Assembly (NCBI GenBank): GCA_016839845.1
Contig: JAEOTL010000413.1
Location: forward strand, 1 to 6,273
Source of the DNA: Promethearchaeota archaeon
GTDB taxonomy: Archaea > Asgardarchaeota > Lokiarchaeia > Sigynarchaeales > SOKP01
Reading direction: 5' to 3'
DNA: 6,273 bases
Shown here piece after piece: positions 1 to 6,273 of this stretch. The position numbers and the translations under genes were made by a program. The first letter of the stretch is position 1; the number at the start of each line of letters is the position of its first letter. The notes beneath the pieces were generated by a model. It saw nothing but the letters and a program-made list of their open reading frames with translations. It was not told the DNA's origin and ran no database searches.

Positions 1-345
1 ATCTGCATTAAAAGTAATTCCAAATTTTGAAGACAATTCTGATAAATTGTTTTTATTCTCATAATCTCCACCTCCATCATTTATAATTAAGAGACTTCCG
101 CCACTTGCAACATATTCGACCAAACATGCGATTTCATCGGAGTCAAGGTCAGGTCCTAGATGAGGAACACCTAATATGAAAATATCATAGTTTTTTAACT
201 TCTCTGAAGCTAAACCTGCTTCAATTTTTCCTAATTGAAATCCAGAATCAAATAAGTACTGAATAAAATCAGTAAATGCGTTATTCTCAATAGTGAGTTT
301 GTTATTATGAGTGTAATCAAACCCAATTGCGATTTTTTTTGCCAT
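1..345 (-). CDS. GATase-like / IFT52-like (DUF4350-type) protein, N-terminal part, truncated by window edge
   Basis: Open frame from the ATG at 345-343 to the left edge (115 codons, no stop), so the C-terminus is missing. Visible pattern: a first beta strand (AKKIAIGFDYTHNN), a strand-turn FILGVPHLGPDL near residues 57-68, a helix EIACLVEYV, then GGSLLIINDGGG (82-93) and a segment with N99, N100 and FGITFNAD (109-115). This matches the N-terminal domain of IFT52/GldG/DUF4350-like proteins, a class I glutamine-amidotransferase-like Rossmann fold in which GGxLL, a Gly-rich turn, an Asn-rich helix and a final GI.xN.D are typical. The family usually acts as a binding or scaffold module, not an enzyme, and no catalytic Cys is visible at a nucleophile elbow. 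The start is supported by the first strand following directly and by an AT-rich box about 27 nt upstream. It is divergent from the cupin gene. The family call rests on pattern memory; the specific function is unknown. Confidence 0.72.
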   Translation of the reverse strand, partial: MAKKIAIGFDYTHNNKLTIENNAFTDFIQYLFDSGFQLGKIEAGLASEKLKNYDIFILGVPHLGPDLDSDEIACLVEYVASGGSLLIINDGGGDYENKNNLSELSSKFGITFNAD

Positions 346-592: not shown

Positions 593-949
593 ATGATAAG
601 AAAAAATTACCGCGATGTTGAATCAGCACAAGCTACATTAAGTAATGGAACTAATGTAGAAGATGTAACTGTACGGTGGTTGATTGATAAAAAGATGGGC
701 GCCCAAAACTTTGCTATGAGACGGTTTGAAATCAAGGTTGAGGGTAAAGTCCCTCTCCATAACCATCCACAAGAGCATGAAATATATGTTTTGTCTGGAA
801 ACGCAAAATTTTATAATGGGGAGAATAAGGAGGAGATAGTAAAAGAGGGGGATGTAATCTTTATCCCTCCAAATGAACCCCACGGAATAGATAATCTTGG
901 AAAAGAAAGATTTGACTTTATTTGTCTTATACCCTATCTCGAGAAGTGA
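593..949 (+). CDS. small single-domain cupin protein (cupin_2 type)
   Basis: 118 residues, complete, ATG to TGA. It is a one-domain beta-barrel cupin, probably a cytosolic metal-binding protein; no signal peptide or membrane segment is visible. Cupin motif 1 is at residues 51-69 (G51, H56, H58, E63, G69) and motif 2 at 86-101 (G86, P92, H97, N101). H56, H58, E63 and H97 are the expected 3-His/1-Glu ligands, usually for Mn, Fe, Ni or Zn. The N-terminal piece with VRWLI and NFAMRRFEI is typical of short archaeal and bacterial cupins of unknown substrate. The Gly of the motif 2 PxG is replaced by Asn (N94). The start is supported by the TATA box 27 nt upstream and by no earlier in-frame start. 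It is transcribed towards gyrA, with an 11-nt gap between the stops, so it is not part of the gyrase unit. The family is certain; the substrate or reaction cannot be deduced. Confidence 0.93.
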   Translation: MIRKNYRDVESAQATLSNGTNVEDVTVRWLIDKKMGAQNFAMRRFEIKVEGKVPLHNHPQEHEIYVLSGNAKFYNGENKEEIVKEGDVIFIPPNEPHGIDNLGKERFDFICLIPYLEK

Positions 950-960
950 ATTCGATGGGA

Positions 961-3399
961 TTATAAATCTTTTGCGCACTTACCAATAGCGACAACTGAA
1001 TCATTTTCATAAAGTTTGATAACTCTTACTCCTTTTGCGGTTCTATGAGTAATTCTAATAGAATCAACCGGAACTCGTATAACTTGCCCTTTTTCTGTGC
1101 CAATCAACATATCCATTTGTTTTGCGATCTTGATAGCAATTACATTATCATTTTTTGTTTTGTTTAATGTAATATTTTTAACGCCTTTGGCTCCCCTACC
1201 TGTTTTTCTATATTCTTTAACATAAGTCCTTTGACCATAACCATTCTCAGTTAATGTTAGAATAATTTCTTCATCTGAAACTAAAAGAGTATCGATAATT
1301 TCATCTCCTTCTCTTAGATCAGCGCCCTTTACACCCATGGAGGTCCTTCCCAACTCTCTGAGCTCAGATTCATCAAATCTGACTGCGTAACCTAATTTAG
1401 TAGCAATAAAAATATCTTCTAATTCATTTGTTAACCTTCTAACACTGACCAATTCATCATCAGGTCTAATTTTCTGAGCTCTAACTCCGGTGCTTTTAAA
1501 CTTAGAAAATAGTTTTAGAGGGGATTTCTTTATTATGCCATTTTTGGTGGTCATTATGAGCGCTTCATTAGTGTTAAAATTATTAATGGGTATCATCGAA
1601 GATATCTTTTCACCTGATTGGAGAGGGATAAGATTAATAATAGGCTTTCCTCGAGCAGTACGCTTTTGGAGGGGGATATTATAACACTTTATAGAATATA
1701 CTCTTCCCTTCGAAGTAAACACTAAAATTGTATCATGTGTAGAACATACAAATAAATCGTTTATAAAATCTTCTTCTCGTACGGTCATTCCCTTCTTTCC
1801 CCGTCCCCCTCTTCCTTGTGTTCGATATTCTTCTACAGATATTCGTTTAACATATTGATTCTTTGTGAAAATTATAATTGTAGGCTCTTTTTTAATAAGG
1901 TCTTTAGTTTCAATCTCCTTTACATGTTGTTCCCCACTAACTTCAATTTTCGATTTCCTTGGATCTCCATATTTTTTACTTAATTCCGATAATTCATTCT
2001 TTATTATATCGAGACGTAATTGTTCATTTGCTAAAGTTTTATTAAATCCTGTGATACTTTCATTTAGAGATTTCTTTTCATCAACTAACTTTTGTTTTTC
2101 TAAATTTGTCAATCGGGATAATTGCATGCTTAATATTGCTTGAACTTGAACTTCGCTCAAATTATAAACCATAATTAATTTCTCTTTAGCTTCGTTTGTA
2201 TCTTTTGATTTTTTAATTAGATCTACAACATTATCAATGTCATCTAAAGCAATAAGCAATCCTTCTACTCTATGAAGTCTATCTTCAGCTTTTTTAAGGT
2301 CAAATTCTATTCGTCTTTTAATGATAAGTAAACGGTGATTTATGTATTCTTGAATGATTTCCTTTAAATTAAGGATTTTTGGTTGCTTTCCCTTATTAAT
2401 CAGAACAAGGTTGATAATATTAAAGCTAGTAAACAATTTAGTTCTTTTAAACAAAATATTCTTAATAATAACTGGTTGAGCGTTTTTAGTTAAATCAATA
2501 ACTATCCGCATTCCATGTCTATCAGATTCATCCCTTAAGTCTCTGATATCTTTAAGGACACCATCCTTTACCAATTTAGCAATAGATCCTATTAATAGAG
2601 ATTTATTGACCAAATAGGGAATTTCAGTAATAACTAGACTAGTTTTGTCATTTTTAATTTCAGTTTCGACATTCGCTCTGATATTCACGTTACCGATTCC
2701 AGTAGTATAAGCATTATATATACCATTTATATCTGATATAATTCCTCCTGTTGGAAAATCAGGTCCTTTTATGATTTCCATAAGCTCTTGGACGGATATT
2801 TCAGGATCATCAATTGTGGCAATAATCCCTTTACAGATTTCAATTAAATTATGAGGAGGCATCGAAGTAGCCATACCGACAGCTATACCTTTCGTCCCAT
2901 TTATCAAAATATTAGGTAATACAGCGGGTAAATAAACGGGTTCAACTTTACTATTATCAAAATTAGGGATAAATTCAACTGTTTCCTTATTGATATCCCC
3001 AATTAGTTCATCTGAAATACTAGCTAGTCTTGCTTCTGTATATCGATAAGCCGCTGGTTCGTCTCCATCGACGGATCCAAAATTGCCTTGAGGATCGATT
3101 AAAGGATACCGTAGGGAAAAACTCTGTCCCATTCTTACAAGTGCACCATATGTCGCACTATCCCCTAGAGGATGATAATTTCCTAATACTTCCCCTACAA
3201 TCTTGGCACATTTAACATGAGGTGCACGTGAGTTCCATCCATTTTCTGCCATTGCATAGATTATCCTCTTCTGGACAGGTTTAAGTCCATCTCTAACATC
3301 AGGAATCGCACGTCCAACCACAACGCTCATAGCATAATCAATGTAACTACTCTGCATCTCATCCTTTAACAATACGTCGTCAATCTGTTCTGAAGTCAA
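961..3399 (-). CDS. gyrA: DNA gyrase subunit A
   Basis: 812 residues, a normal GyrA length. GyrA forms the DNA-breaking and DNA-wrapping half of the A2B2 type IIA topoisomerase that introduces negative supercoils using ATP hydrolysed by GyrB. Visible parts: winged-helix/CAP region with SYIDYAMSVVVGRA (18-31) and DVRDGLKPVQKR (34-45); YHPLGDSATYGALVRM (75-90); catalytic Y120 preceded by R119 in AAYRYTEARL; the tower and coiled-coil arm (about 345-480); then the beta-pinwheel C-terminal domain from about 505. A GyrA box, QGRGGRG at 528-534, marks it as gyrase and not topoisomerase IV. The start is TTG: no ATG lies between the gyrB stop and this point, and the frame closes upstream at 3438-3436. 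GGGAT six nt before TTG is only a weak ribosome site. The 47-nt gap to gyrB implies co-transcription. Odd positions: L78 and G85 correspond to E. coli H80 and D87. There is no acidic tail after the last blade. Confidence 0.96.
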   Translation of the reverse strand: MTSEQIDDVLLKDEMQSSYIDYAMSVVVGRAIPDVRDGLKPVQKRIIYAMAENGWNSRAPHVKCAKIVGEVLGNYHPLGDSATYGALVRMGQSFSLRYPLIDPQGNFGSVDGDEPAAYRYTEARLASISDELIGDINKETVEFIPNFDNSKVEPVYLPAVLPNILINGTKGIAVGMATSMPPHNLIEICKGIIATIDDPEISVQELMEIIKGPDFPTGGIISDINGIYNAYTTGIGNVNIRANVETEIKNDKTSLVITEIPYLVNKSLLIGSIAKLVKDGVLKDIRDLRDESDRHGMRIVIDLTKNAQPVIIKNILFKRTKLFTSFNIINLVLINKGKQPKILNLKEIIQEYINHRLLIIKRRIEFDLKKAEDRLHRVEGLLIALDDIDNVVDLIKKSKDTNEAKEKLIMVYNLSEVQVQAILSMQLSRLTNLEKQKLVDEKKSLNESITGFNKTLANEQLRLDIIKNELSELSKKYGDPRKSKIEVSGEQHVKEIETKDLIKKEPTIIIFTKNQYVKRISVEEYRTQGRGGRGKKGMTVREEDFINDLFVCSTHDTILVFTSKGRVYSIKCYNIPLQKRTARGKPIINLIPLQSGEKISSMIPINNFNTNEALIMTTKNGIIKKSPLKLFSKFKSTGVRAQKIRPDDELVSVRRLTNELEDIFIATKLGYAVRFDESELRELGRTSMGVKGADLREGDEIIDTLLVSDEEIILTLTENGYGQRTYVKEYRKTGRGAKGVKNITLNKTKNDNVIAIKIAKQMDMLIGTEKGQVIRVPVDSIRITHRTAKGVRVIKLYENDSVVAIGKCAKDL

Positions 3400-3446: not shown

Positions 3447-5509
3447 CTAAATATCTAACACATTAACTTCATCAAAATTACTGATAATAAACTTTTTTCG
3501 GGCTTTAACTTCTTTACCCATAAGCTTTGTAAACATTAAATCATTTTCTAAATAGTCCTCATAGGTGACTCTTTTGAGTCTTCTGGTTTCTCTATTCATA
3601 GTAGTAATGTAAAGCTCCTCAGGATTCATTTCCCCAAGTCCTTTATAACGTTGAACTCGGATTGAATTTGTGTCTTTAAGCTTATGTTTAGTTTTTAATT
3701 CTTGGATCAAATTATCCTTTTCTTTGTCTGAATGAATATATTCTTTTGTTTTTTTGTAACTTACTTTATACAAGGGAGGACATGCCATGAATAAATTTCC
3801 ATTATCTATTAGAGGACGCATGTATCTAAAGAAAAAGGTTAGTAAAAGTGTTTCAATATGTTTTCCATCAATATCACTATCACACAATAAAACTACCTTA
3901 TGATACCTTAACTTACTTAAATCAAAATTCTCCTCAATATCTTCCCCTTCTTCTATTTCTCCATTTGAGCCATTAGTTTCATTTACTTCTTGAAACCCTA
4001 CCCCTAGGGCTTTAATAATAGACTGGATTTCATTATTTTGCAATATCTTATCCAATCGAGCCTTTTCTACATTTAAAACCTTACCTCTAAGAGGAAGAAT
4101 AGCCTGATAATTTCTATCTCTTCCTTGTTTTGCAGAGCCACCTGCTGAATTTCCCTCGACTATAAAGATTTCTGATTCCTCAGGATTGTTCGAAGAGCAA
4201 TCAGCAAGTTTGCCAGGCATTCTTGCACTATCTAATGCGGATTTTCTACGAATTAGTGATCTTGCTTTTTGGGCGGCTTCACGAGCAATTTTTGCATTAA
4301 TAGTCTTTAAAACAATTCTTTTAGCTGTTTGGGGATGTTCTTCTAGGTATTGAGTTAACCTATCAGTTACCATTTGACTTATAATCTGTCGAATCTCAGG
4401 ATTGCCTAATTTAATTTTAGTTTGGCTTTCAAATTGGGGATCTGGGAGTTTAACTGAAATTACTGCTGAAAGGCCTTCTCTTGTATCAGTCCCACTTAAA
4501 ACATGATCTTTATATTTTTTTTCCATATAGTTTTCGATATATGAATTAAAACCTCTTGTTAAAGCTGATTTGAATCCGGTTAAATGGGTACCTCCTTCAA
4601 TAGTGTTGATCGTATTAGCATAAGAGAGAATGTTAGACTGATACCCTTGGTTGTATTGTGCAGCAATTTCGCATATTACACTAGAACCATCCTCATCTGT
4701 AGTTGAATCGCTAATAGAAATTACATCATTATGTAAAGGTTGTTTATCTTTATTCAAATAGCTAACAAATTCTTTTAATCCTCCCTCATAATGAAATTCT
4801 TCTGTTTCACCATTAAATTTATCATGAAGTTCAAATCTTGTATTTGGATTAAGAAATGCTAACTCTCGTATCCTAGTAGTGATAGTTGGGGCACTGAAAA
4901 TTGGTTCATCCGGATTAAATTCAAAAATTGTATTGTCGGGATAAAATGATATTTTTGTAAAAGATTCTTTAGTATTAACCTGGTTTATCTCTGGTTCAGA
5001 AACCTTTTTACCTTTAGAAAATTTTTGAGTGTAGCTTAATCCGTCACGACACACTTCAACAAGCATCCATTCGGTTAATGCATTCACAACTGAAAGCCCA
5101 ACACCGTGTAAGCCTCCAGAAATTTTATAACTCTTACTGTCGAATTTCCCACCAGAATGAAGGTGCTCCATAATTACTTCTAGAGCGGGTTTATTGAATT
5201 CGGGATGATTATCTATAGGAATCCCTCGACCATTATCAAATATTTTAACAGAGTTATCCTTGAGAAGTGTTATTTTAATTTCATTGGCAAAACCCCCAAT
5301 TGCTTCATCAACTGAGTTATCAAGAACCTCAAAAATAAGATGGTGAAGACCCTTCTTACCTTGATCCCCAATATACATTGCGGGGCGTCTTCTCTAGCGA
5401 CTCAGCACGATTTGTGCAAAAATTTTATAAATTATAAATTTGAGTTTACGCCTTCGAGCCCCTTTAGTACTTGGATATCATCGGCATCATAACCATTATT
5501 TTCAGACAT
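3447..5509 (-). CDS. gyrB: DNA gyrase subunit B, two exons: join of 5447-5509 and 3447-5393
   Basis: After removal of the 53-nt intron the product has 669 residues: 21 from exon 1 and 648 from exon 2. GyrB supplies ATPase and TOPRIM functions to gyrase. Exon 1 carries the N-terminal arm YDADDIQVLKGLEGV (7-21), with Y7 and I12 matching E. coli Y5 and I10, which reach into the partner's ATP site. Exon 2 begins RRRPAMYIG (22-30). GHKL motifs follow: E43 and N47 in EVLDN, D74 in DNGRGIP, GGLHGVG (114-120). The transducer has QTKIKL. TOPRIM has EGNSAGGSAKQGRDR (434 on) and DSDIDG (526-531), then RYKGLGEMN (603-611). The E. coli-type 170-residue insertion is absent. About 20 acidic residues are inserted before DLSKLRYHK. 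Starting at the internal ATG (5378) would give a 643-residue protein without the arm and with the RPxMYIG motif cut in two, so the upstream ATG at 5509 is preferred. No Shine-Dalgarno sequence precedes it. N436 replaces the usual Asp of EGDSAGG. Confidence 0.94.
5382..5462 (-). other. bulge-helix-bulge splicing motif spanning the gyrB exon-intron junctions
   Basis: Central helix of 4 bp: exon 1 GGCG (5452-5449) with intron CGCU (5399-5396), including one G-U pair. Bulge 1 is UAA (5448-5446) and bulge 2 is AGA (5395-5393), 3 nt each on opposite strands. Inner helix of 5 bp: ACUCA (5445-5441) with UGAGU (5404-5400). Cutting after the second nucleotide of each bulge, the archaeal EndA rule, gives UA^A and AG^A, exactly the boundaries required by the protein. 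The outer exon-exon stem is imperfect: GAA faces GAA (5455-5453 with 5392-5390), which can form stacked sheared purine pairs. Then UC pairs with GA, a single C bulges, and GGGGC (5462-5458) pairs with GCCCC (5386-5382). It is therefore a BHB core with a relaxed outer helix. Confidence 0.82.
5394..5446 (-). other. 53-nt archaeal (BHB-type) intron in gyrB, phase 0
   Basis: In transcript sense, exon 1 ends ...GGC GTA at 5447 and exon 2 begins AGA AGA CGC at 5393. The 53 nt between them are not a multiple of three. Reading on from exon 1 gives N-S-N-L and then TAA, and the frame of exon 2 has TAG just before AGA. Excising exactly 53 nt yields GLEGV-RRRPAMYIG, matching the invariant GyrB GLEAVRKRPGMYIG block with no gap. 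The intron is too short for a group I or II ribozyme or a homing endonuclease gene. It holds an AT-only stretch (5440-5418) and a GCAC/GTGC hairpin (5417-5405) stacked against the splicing stem. Processing would be by the tRNA-splicing endonuclease and the RtcB ligase, as for archaeal tRNA introns. Shifting the intron by one base (to 5393-5445) gives the same spliced product, but the BHB cut rule selects 5394-5446. Confidence 0.88.
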
Positions 5510-5931: not shown

Positions 5932-6273
5932 CTACTGAATGTCTCCATGAGTCCATGCCTTGGTGGAAAAATTGTAGAAATTTCCAAGGTTCTCAAGATT
6001 ATTAAGATTTGATAATCCGATCCTCAATCGATGTCGACTTCGTATAGTTCTTGCAATTTGATGGATAATATATTTTGGGCGCATAATAAAGGTGATATAA
6101 GCTAGTCTCATTTCTTCTTCTACCAGTTGGAGAGGAGGTACCAAAGTTTTCACCCCGTTTTCCCAGAACTTATCAGGATTTATGGTTCCTTCTTGCACTA
6201 ATCGATCCCATATTTCTGAGCCCGGTAGGGCCCCAAATATATGAAATTGAGGAAAATCGATATCTAATTTTTG
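5932..6273 (-). CDS. C-terminal part of a radical SAM protein, probably cobalamin-binding type, truncated by window edge
   Basis: The open frame enters from the right edge and ends with TAG at 5934-5932, leaving 113 residues. The visible GTG at 6198 is internal and not a real start, since the same frame continues to the edge with good homology: DIDFPQFHIFGALPGSEIWDRLVQEG is the last strand and helix of a radical SAM TIM barrel, where PGT/PGS-E-x-W/Y is conserved. After it come KFWENG, an EEEMRLAY helix and MRPKYIIHQIARTIRSR (residues about 67-84 of the fragment). This (A)Y..F..RPKYI pattern is typical of the tail of B12-binding radical SAM enzymes (BchE/P-methylase-like group). The CxxxCxxC cluster site and any B12 domain lie outside the window, so substrate and reaction cannot be told. 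It is separated from gyrB by 422 nt. Confidence 0.75.
   Translation of the reverse strand, partial: QKLDIDFPQFHIFGALPGSEIWDRLVQEGTINPDKFWENGVKTLVPPLQLVEEEMRLAYITFIMRPKYIIHQIARTIRSRHRLRIGLSNLNNLENLGNFYNFSTKAWTHGDIQ

Follow-up and report, generated by a model that had tools for sequence, protein, structure and literature searches.

A 53-nt insert that interrupts gyrB in a Promethearchaeota archaeon is very probably a bulge-helix-bulge (BHB) intron, cut from the message by EndA and sealed by RtcB to give full-length GyrB, and comparable introns are predicted in nadE and rpl11 of related Lokiarchaeia. A BHB mRNA intron at this position had been proposed in an earlier note on the same DNA, and the proposal is now supported by restoration of the frame, structure at the junctions, covariation in ten inserts, exon codons and the splicing enzymes of relatives; from this comparative evidence, we infer cleavage and ligation of the gyrB message in the cell. 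The window (the whole stretch of DNA analysed, 6,273 nt) encodes a Lokiarchaeia-like GyrB, with up to 86% identity, and its gyrase genes are laid out as follows:

961..3399, minus strand: gyrA, uninterrupted, downstream of gyrB (1027.3 bits).
3447..5393, minus strand: gyrB exon 2, RRRPAMYIGD... to the stop (NCBIfam PRK05644 match).
5394..5446, minus strand: predicted BHB intron, 53 nt with an in-frame stop (sequence and relatives).
5447..5509, minus strand: gyrB exon 1, 21 codons MSENNGYDADDIQVLKGLEGV, N-terminal arm (read from the sequence; ATG at 5509).

The length of the insert is not a multiple of three and its fifth in-frame codon is TAA, while the GyrB frame is otherwise open down to its stop. 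The claim that the 53 nt follow GLEGV and that their exact removal restores the GyrB frame is borne out in the window, where the junction of 5447 with 5393 reads GLEGVRRRPAMYIG and leaves no gap (GLEGV-RRRPAMYIG). TIGR01059 rises from 820.7 to 859.0 bits once the exons are joined, its cut-off of 882.4 still not being reached. It could also be hypothesized that no splicing takes place, that the ATG at MYIG starts a shortened GyrB, and that the upstream 21-codon ORF encodes a leader peptide or acts as an attenuator. The listed GyrB ORF does begin at MYIG, with its ATG at 5378, and the intron contains hairpins, but the joined exons score 895.6 bits against NCBIfam PRK05644, compared with 853.9 bits from MYIG (match starting at model position 6 versus 30). 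Moreover, the arm in exon 1 (YDAxDIxVLKGLxGV) and the exon 2 motif R-x-RPA upstream of that ATG are kept, with varying codons, in all ten interrupted genes known here, and the 2^1 BHB cuts and compensatory changes described below also make a shortened GyrB highly unlikely. Elsewhere, the window holds a partial protein with an IFT52 GIFT-domain match (1-345, minus strand; Pfam 32.6 bits), a small cupin protein (593-949, plus strand; Cupin_2, 62.8 bits) and a further partial protein (5932-6273, minus strand) that matches neither Pfam nor NCBIfam at the thresholds applied.

The RNA elements predicted around the two junctions, in window coordinates, are:

5458..5462, minus strand: outer exon helix h, 5' strand GGGGC (covariation alignment and fold).
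5449..5452, minus strand: central helix H, 5' strand GGCG, in exon 1 (helix 2; 95% of cells paired).
5446..5448, minus strand: 5' bulge UA^A, with the predicted cut site 5447^5446 (BHB geometry).
5442..5445, minus strand: inner helix h', 5' strand ACUC (helix 3; 86.7% of cells paired, first three pairs counted).
5424..5438, minus strand: first intron hairpin, in all introns of 30-53 nt (helix 4; 94% of cells paired, both sides changed in three of five pairs).
5405..5417, minus strand: second intron hairpin, confined to the five 53-nt introns (helix 5; 100% of cells paired, both sides changed in two of four pairs).
5400..5403, minus strand: inner helix h', 3' strand GAGU, pairing with ACUC at 5445-5442.
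5396..5399, minus strand: central helix H, 3' strand CGCU, in the intron, pairing with GGCG with one G-U.
5393..5395, minus strand: 3' bulge AG^A, with the predicted cut site 5394^5393 (BHB geometry).
5382..5386, minus strand: outer exon helix h, 3' strand GCCCC (covariation alignment and fold).

Two 3-nt bulges surround a 4-bp helix, and the 2^1 cuts fall at the exon borders. The outer exon-exon helix, in which 86% of cells are paired, is separated from the bulges by unpaired bases; the strict hBHBh' form, with this helix stacked on the bulges, was not found in the gyrB intron, and the motif is therefore a relaxed BHB; known introns of the relaxed kind do not need such stacking. The bulge/4-bp helix/bulge element first noticed, with its 2^1 cuts at the same junctions, is thus present, and only its class needed refinement. 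The minimum-energy fold of the window RNA includes H and the inner helix (z -2.12; 5 of 200 shuffles fold as well). Across ten sequences, z ranges from -0.81 to -3.48, with four of the ten z-scores above -1.5, and the minimum-energy folds of L002, L004 and L009 are without H as modelled.

Scanning genome contigs for GyrB yielded 30 loci, of which 21 are from Lokiarchaeia at 74-85% identity. The class to which genome G004 belongs was then represented by 83 genomes, with GyrB found in 68 and its N-terminal region readable in 65 (it is cut off in G017, G018 and G040). An insert at the same site is present in nine of these 65 genomes (53 nt in G002, G004, G009 and G054, 33 nt in G014, 31 nt in G063, and 30 nt in G048, G050 and G051) and absent from the other 56; six genes flagged by the R-x-RP pattern (L080, L087, L089, L090, L091, L098) were counted by eye as uninterrupted. 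With the window, ten inserts occupy one site (five of 53 nt, one of 33, one of 31 and three of 30), each of which reaches an in-frame stop by its fifth codon at the latest (by eye), and removal restores the protein each time. No second intact gyrB was seen, each of the nine intron-bearing genomes having one GyrB match. Because the named relatives are metagenome-assembled, the insert might be suspected to stem from faulty sequencing or assembly, or to mark a gene in decay. However, one site is used in ten sequences, among them a 3.34-Mb single-contig chromosome record (G004, CP070831), structure is kept while sequence diverges, and the GyrB frame is otherwise open, so that the probability of such an artefact appears next to negligible. 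A different kind of interruption was observed in the gyrB of G020 (L020:4150-5349), where an intein lies in frame (42.7 bits for Pfam Intein_splicing against a cut-off of 35.8, with HNH staying under its own cut-off).

Alignment of gyrB from relatives revealed both the presence or absence of the insert and the compensatory changes that the earlier note had looked to as a check. In the covariation alignment of the ten inserts, 91.6% of 190 cells are standard pairs, compared with 33-41% in slid versions; eight of 21 pairs have changed on both sides and none of 500 shuffles reaches the covariation score, the slid control carrying more weight because related sequences can beat shuffles without structure. 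The exon codons are constrained as well. GGC GTA stands at the exon junction in 10/10 interrupted genes versus 4/56 uninterrupted ones, and the leucine codon is CTN in 10/10 versus 24/56. Column pair 6-80 of the outer helix, made up of two codon third positions, is GC, CG or UA in seven of ten interrupted genes and unpaired in three, against 20 of 56 paired in uninterrupted genes (p 0.047, with Fisher tests and pair counts taking related sequences as independent). Pair 3-83 of the same helix is no better in interrupted (4/10) than in uninterrupted gyrB (17/56). The junction codons GGC GTA AGA are kept in four uninterrupted genes (L015, L071, L072, L075), a possible trace of intron loss.

A covariance-model search for the element was also informative about known introns, model R1 recovering all nine of those in gyrB. 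The R1 searches used strict filters, and only 54 or 19 candidates were scored per genome. In the 83 class genomes, at E up to 1, only weak matches appeared besides the known introns: those in G041 (E 0.42, the junction of an uninterrupted gyrB) and G048 (E 0.26, a site within an open coding frame) were rejected, and a further one lies in G020 (E 0.57). Among 227 phylum genomes, at E up to 0.1, a match in G192 (E 3.5e-4) was rejected as an unrelated coding stretch holding LKGLEGV by chance.

The earlier note suggested that the host may carry other protein-coding introns, missed by automated gene calling; in relatives, such introns are indeed predicted, in nadE and rpl11 of G004 and in the rpl11 of further genomes. 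A first ab initio scan for BHB plus coding sequence was too noisy (2429 candidates). A stricter scan of 2.4 of the 3.34 Mb of G004 found 7919 BHB motifs and 40 phase-consistent candidates, where decoy phases led one to expect 51; a second scan gave 218 against 233.5. Overall, phase-consistent sites were not in excess, and the best-scored tail alone stands out (5 versus 1.5). The G004 scan is insensitive, since it missed the gyrB intron of the same genome. From the scans, nadE and rpl11 alone were accepted, on homology, and the second-ranked candidate was not; another candidate, at 761395, is an L32e/L19e gene boundary (by eye), and one at 1314067 is likewise outside the accepted set. The top candidate, in G004 nadE (2599625-2599654), is 30 nt long and separates KYGD from GGVD, and the joined gene passes the NAD+ synthase equivalog model (290.4, cut-off 255). 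The third, in G004 rpl11 (1129379-1129406), is 28 nt long, and the joined gene passes the L11 equivalog model (200.2, cut-off 162). The 30-nt nadE insert recurs at one site in four of 30 loci fetched (G004, G054, G043, G011), as matches holding a stop, and 45 of 48 cells of its BHB are paired, compared with 31-54% when slid. Outside these 30 loci, the nadE matches of G008 and G081 also hold a stop.

For rpl11, 29 BHB introns were predicted at four sites in 21 of 44 genomes, the gene being uninterrupted in 23; the proportion 21/44 is not a frequency estimate, because 14 genomes picked for a split, late-starting or stop-holding match were added to the 30 best matches. By residue, the introns fall at 17 (10), 24 (7), 28 (2) and 34 (10), after two site-24 calls in G048/G049 that overlap site 28 were dropped (31 to 29). 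Late-starting or split rpl11 matches in six further genomes (G017, G018, G064, G065, G066, G072) lie outside the count. All 29 introns shift the frame or hold a stop. Helix H lacks no pair in 25 of the 29 introns and keeps three or more of its four pairs in all of them, compared with perfect helices at 53 of 2320 decoy offsets. The first pair at site 17 takes the form U-A in six introns and A-U in four, the exon third position and the intron agreeing in 10/10. Cells are paired to 88%, 92% and 93% at sites 17, 28 and 34 (slid, up to 65%, 62% and 42%), and site 24 is weaker (60%; slid, 29-43%). Two introns each are predicted in G054, G059, G007, G011, G016 and G071, and three in G057, where a 21-nt exon lies between the first two and no more than 50 coding nt separate the outer junctions. 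In a phylum search, L11 outside this part of the class is uninterrupted among the matches listed, in which two G114 matches are not included. By eye, UCGAUU was seen in nine of ten site-34 and four of ten site-17 introns. In addition, long EF-2 matches in 14 class genomes either contain an in-frame stop or break near residue 32 (G043, G044) or 97 (G081, G024), for example G009:C3:75825-77948, G058:C1:1381918-1384101, G044:C272 and G043:C188; EF-2 is possibly a fourth intron-bearing gene, assembly errors being another possible source.

The recurrence of one structure in several genes bears on two other ways of dealing with such inserts. In translational bypassing, of which T4 gene 60 is an example, ribosomes would hop over the insert to make an identical product, and the hairpins and early stop of the gyrB insert are compatible with this. 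BHB bulges are nevertheless found at both junctions in the gyrB, nadE and rpl11 sites, including all three inserts of G057, and EndA and RtcB are present in relatives, which leaves bypassing barely credible. Another intron type (group I, group II or spliceosomal-like), or programmed DNA excision, would likewise explain why exact removal restores the gene each time. This seems extremely unlikely, as inserts of 28-53 nt are too short for group I or II introns, the intron ends vary between genes and sites while the BHB is common to them, and an Rfam search of the window at the gathering threshold gave 0 matches.

The enzymes needed for removal of BHB introns were found in relatives. EndA (PF01974) exceeds its cut-off in 21/21 of the first Lokiarchaeial genomes, with two copies in 19, and is present in all nine gyrB-intron-bearing genomes, with two copies in seven; only a beta-type EndA was found in G050, and only an alpha-type in G051. 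RtcB was found in ten of 11 genomes, the exception being G051. The alpha-type sequences match structure 3p1z best and keep Tyr/His/Lys in 8/8, residues whose catalytic roles we take to be those of M. jannaschii EndA; the beta-type sequences match 1a79 best and lack His and the second Lys in 8/8. This residue pattern suggests that Lokiarchaeial EndA is an alpha-beta heterotetramer accepting the relaxed motif. EndA of this architecture has been linked to relaxed BHB motifs and pre-mRNA introns, in the available text of PMC2738675. In 1.2 Mb of G004, ARAGORN with introns allowed yields nine predicted tRNAs that contain an intron, among them a tRNA Thr with 21 nt at 37/38; the other borders, at odd positions, are unsure.

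The history of these introns appears to be one of patchy presence. On a GyrB tree of 62 of 66 rows (the short rows L068, L082, L099 and L100 being left out), the gyrB intron requires nine changes, at least eight of them forced by well-supported branches, compared with an average of 9.4 for shuffled labels, and an origin as a single clade does not fit. Within the five-member clade of the window (100/100), the intron occurs in the window and G002 and is absent from G001, G003 and G060. In the same clade, the rpl11 intron lies at site 17 in G001, 24 in G002 and 34 in G060, and L11 was not found in G003; three different sites in three close relatives suggest that rpl11 introns turn over fast. For gyrB, the shared site, shared structure and drift in length are compatible with an old intron, followed by numerous losses or by local gene transfer, and independent insertions at the same base each time seem less likely.

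In the mechanism proposed, EndA would cut both bulges of the gyrB mRNA and RtcB would join the exons, while the excised intron would leave, probably as a circle. Translation of an unspliced message from its first start would end after a mere 25 residues, and synthesis of GyrB therefore likely depends on splicing. In E. coli GyrB, the arm reaches over the ATP site of the partner subunit, and an internal start at MYIG would give a GyrB without it. Since the alternatives would be a short peptide or an armless protein, splicing may gate active gyrase. The best reading of the sequences is that of EndA/RtcB mRNA introns patchily gained and lost, and recurrent in Lokiarchaeia. Given the gyrB intron and similar inserts in two other core genes, Lokiarchaeia probably splice their protein messages far more than thought. 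A bolder proposition, which we regard as evenly balanced, is that a Lokiarchaeial subclade has genome-wide, spliceosome-free mRNA splicing, in which many core genes (gyrB, nadE, rpl11 and probably EF-2) carry tiny EndA/RtcB introns, several per gene, that turn over fast between sister species. If so, expression of the core machinery would hinge on tRNA-splicing capacity. Short BHB introns in the genes for gyrase, NAD synthetase and ribosomal protein L11, three of them in a single gene, would by themselves demonstrate that routine splicing of protein messages is possible in an archaeon that has no spliceosome and belongs to the phylum nearest to eukaryotes. This bears on how a lineage could tolerate mRNA introns before spliceosomes, and offers a natural system for recent intron gain and loss at several sites. 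In Asgard annotations, introns of this kind may also cause starts to be overlooked and genes to be reported as broken.

Archaeal tRNA and rRNA introns have BHB motifs with 2^1 cuts and are processed by EndA and RtcB. The motif and cuts are common to the Lokiarchaeial introns, but the host RNA is here a messenger, in which the exons must meet the motif by synonymous codon choice. In XBP1/HAC1 splicing, a small mRNA intron is removed non-spliceosomally by an endonuclease and a tRNA ligase. It works alike without being a relative, since it uses IRE1 stem-loops rather than BHB and EndA. IRE1 mRNA splicing is described in the available text of PMC13149111. No additional coding-gene BHB introns in Asgard archaea appear in the accessible portions of PMC12397907, PMC6125680 and PMC13149111, and in the open-access literature covered (few subscription papers, no preprints, some sources in part) no Asgard coding-gene BHB intron was found, nor any paper pairing gyrB with bulge-helix-bulge. 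The cbf5 mRNA intron is the only one reported besides the 5'-UTR case of HVO_1309, according to the part of PMC7714728 available, and introns in other archaeal genes had been predicted, none being confirmed, according to that of PMC2738675. In published papers, as far as their accessible text goes, archaeal protein-coding BHB introns have so far been a curiosity of crenarchaeal cbf5. The HVO_1309 BHB intron of Haloferax volcanii is likewise in an EndA-processed mRNA (processing being a prediction for gyrB), but sits in the untranslated leader, whereas the gyrB intron lies within codons (PMC7714728, available part). Most cbf5 introns have an unconventional BHB too, as stated in the available text of PMC2738675, and cbf5 is uninterrupted in the 11/11 Lokiarchaeial genomes tested. 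Compared with the cbf5 intron of Crenarchaeota (PMC2738675), which concerns another gene in another phylum, the predicted introns of Lokiarchaeia extend to several genes, with up to three introns per gene.
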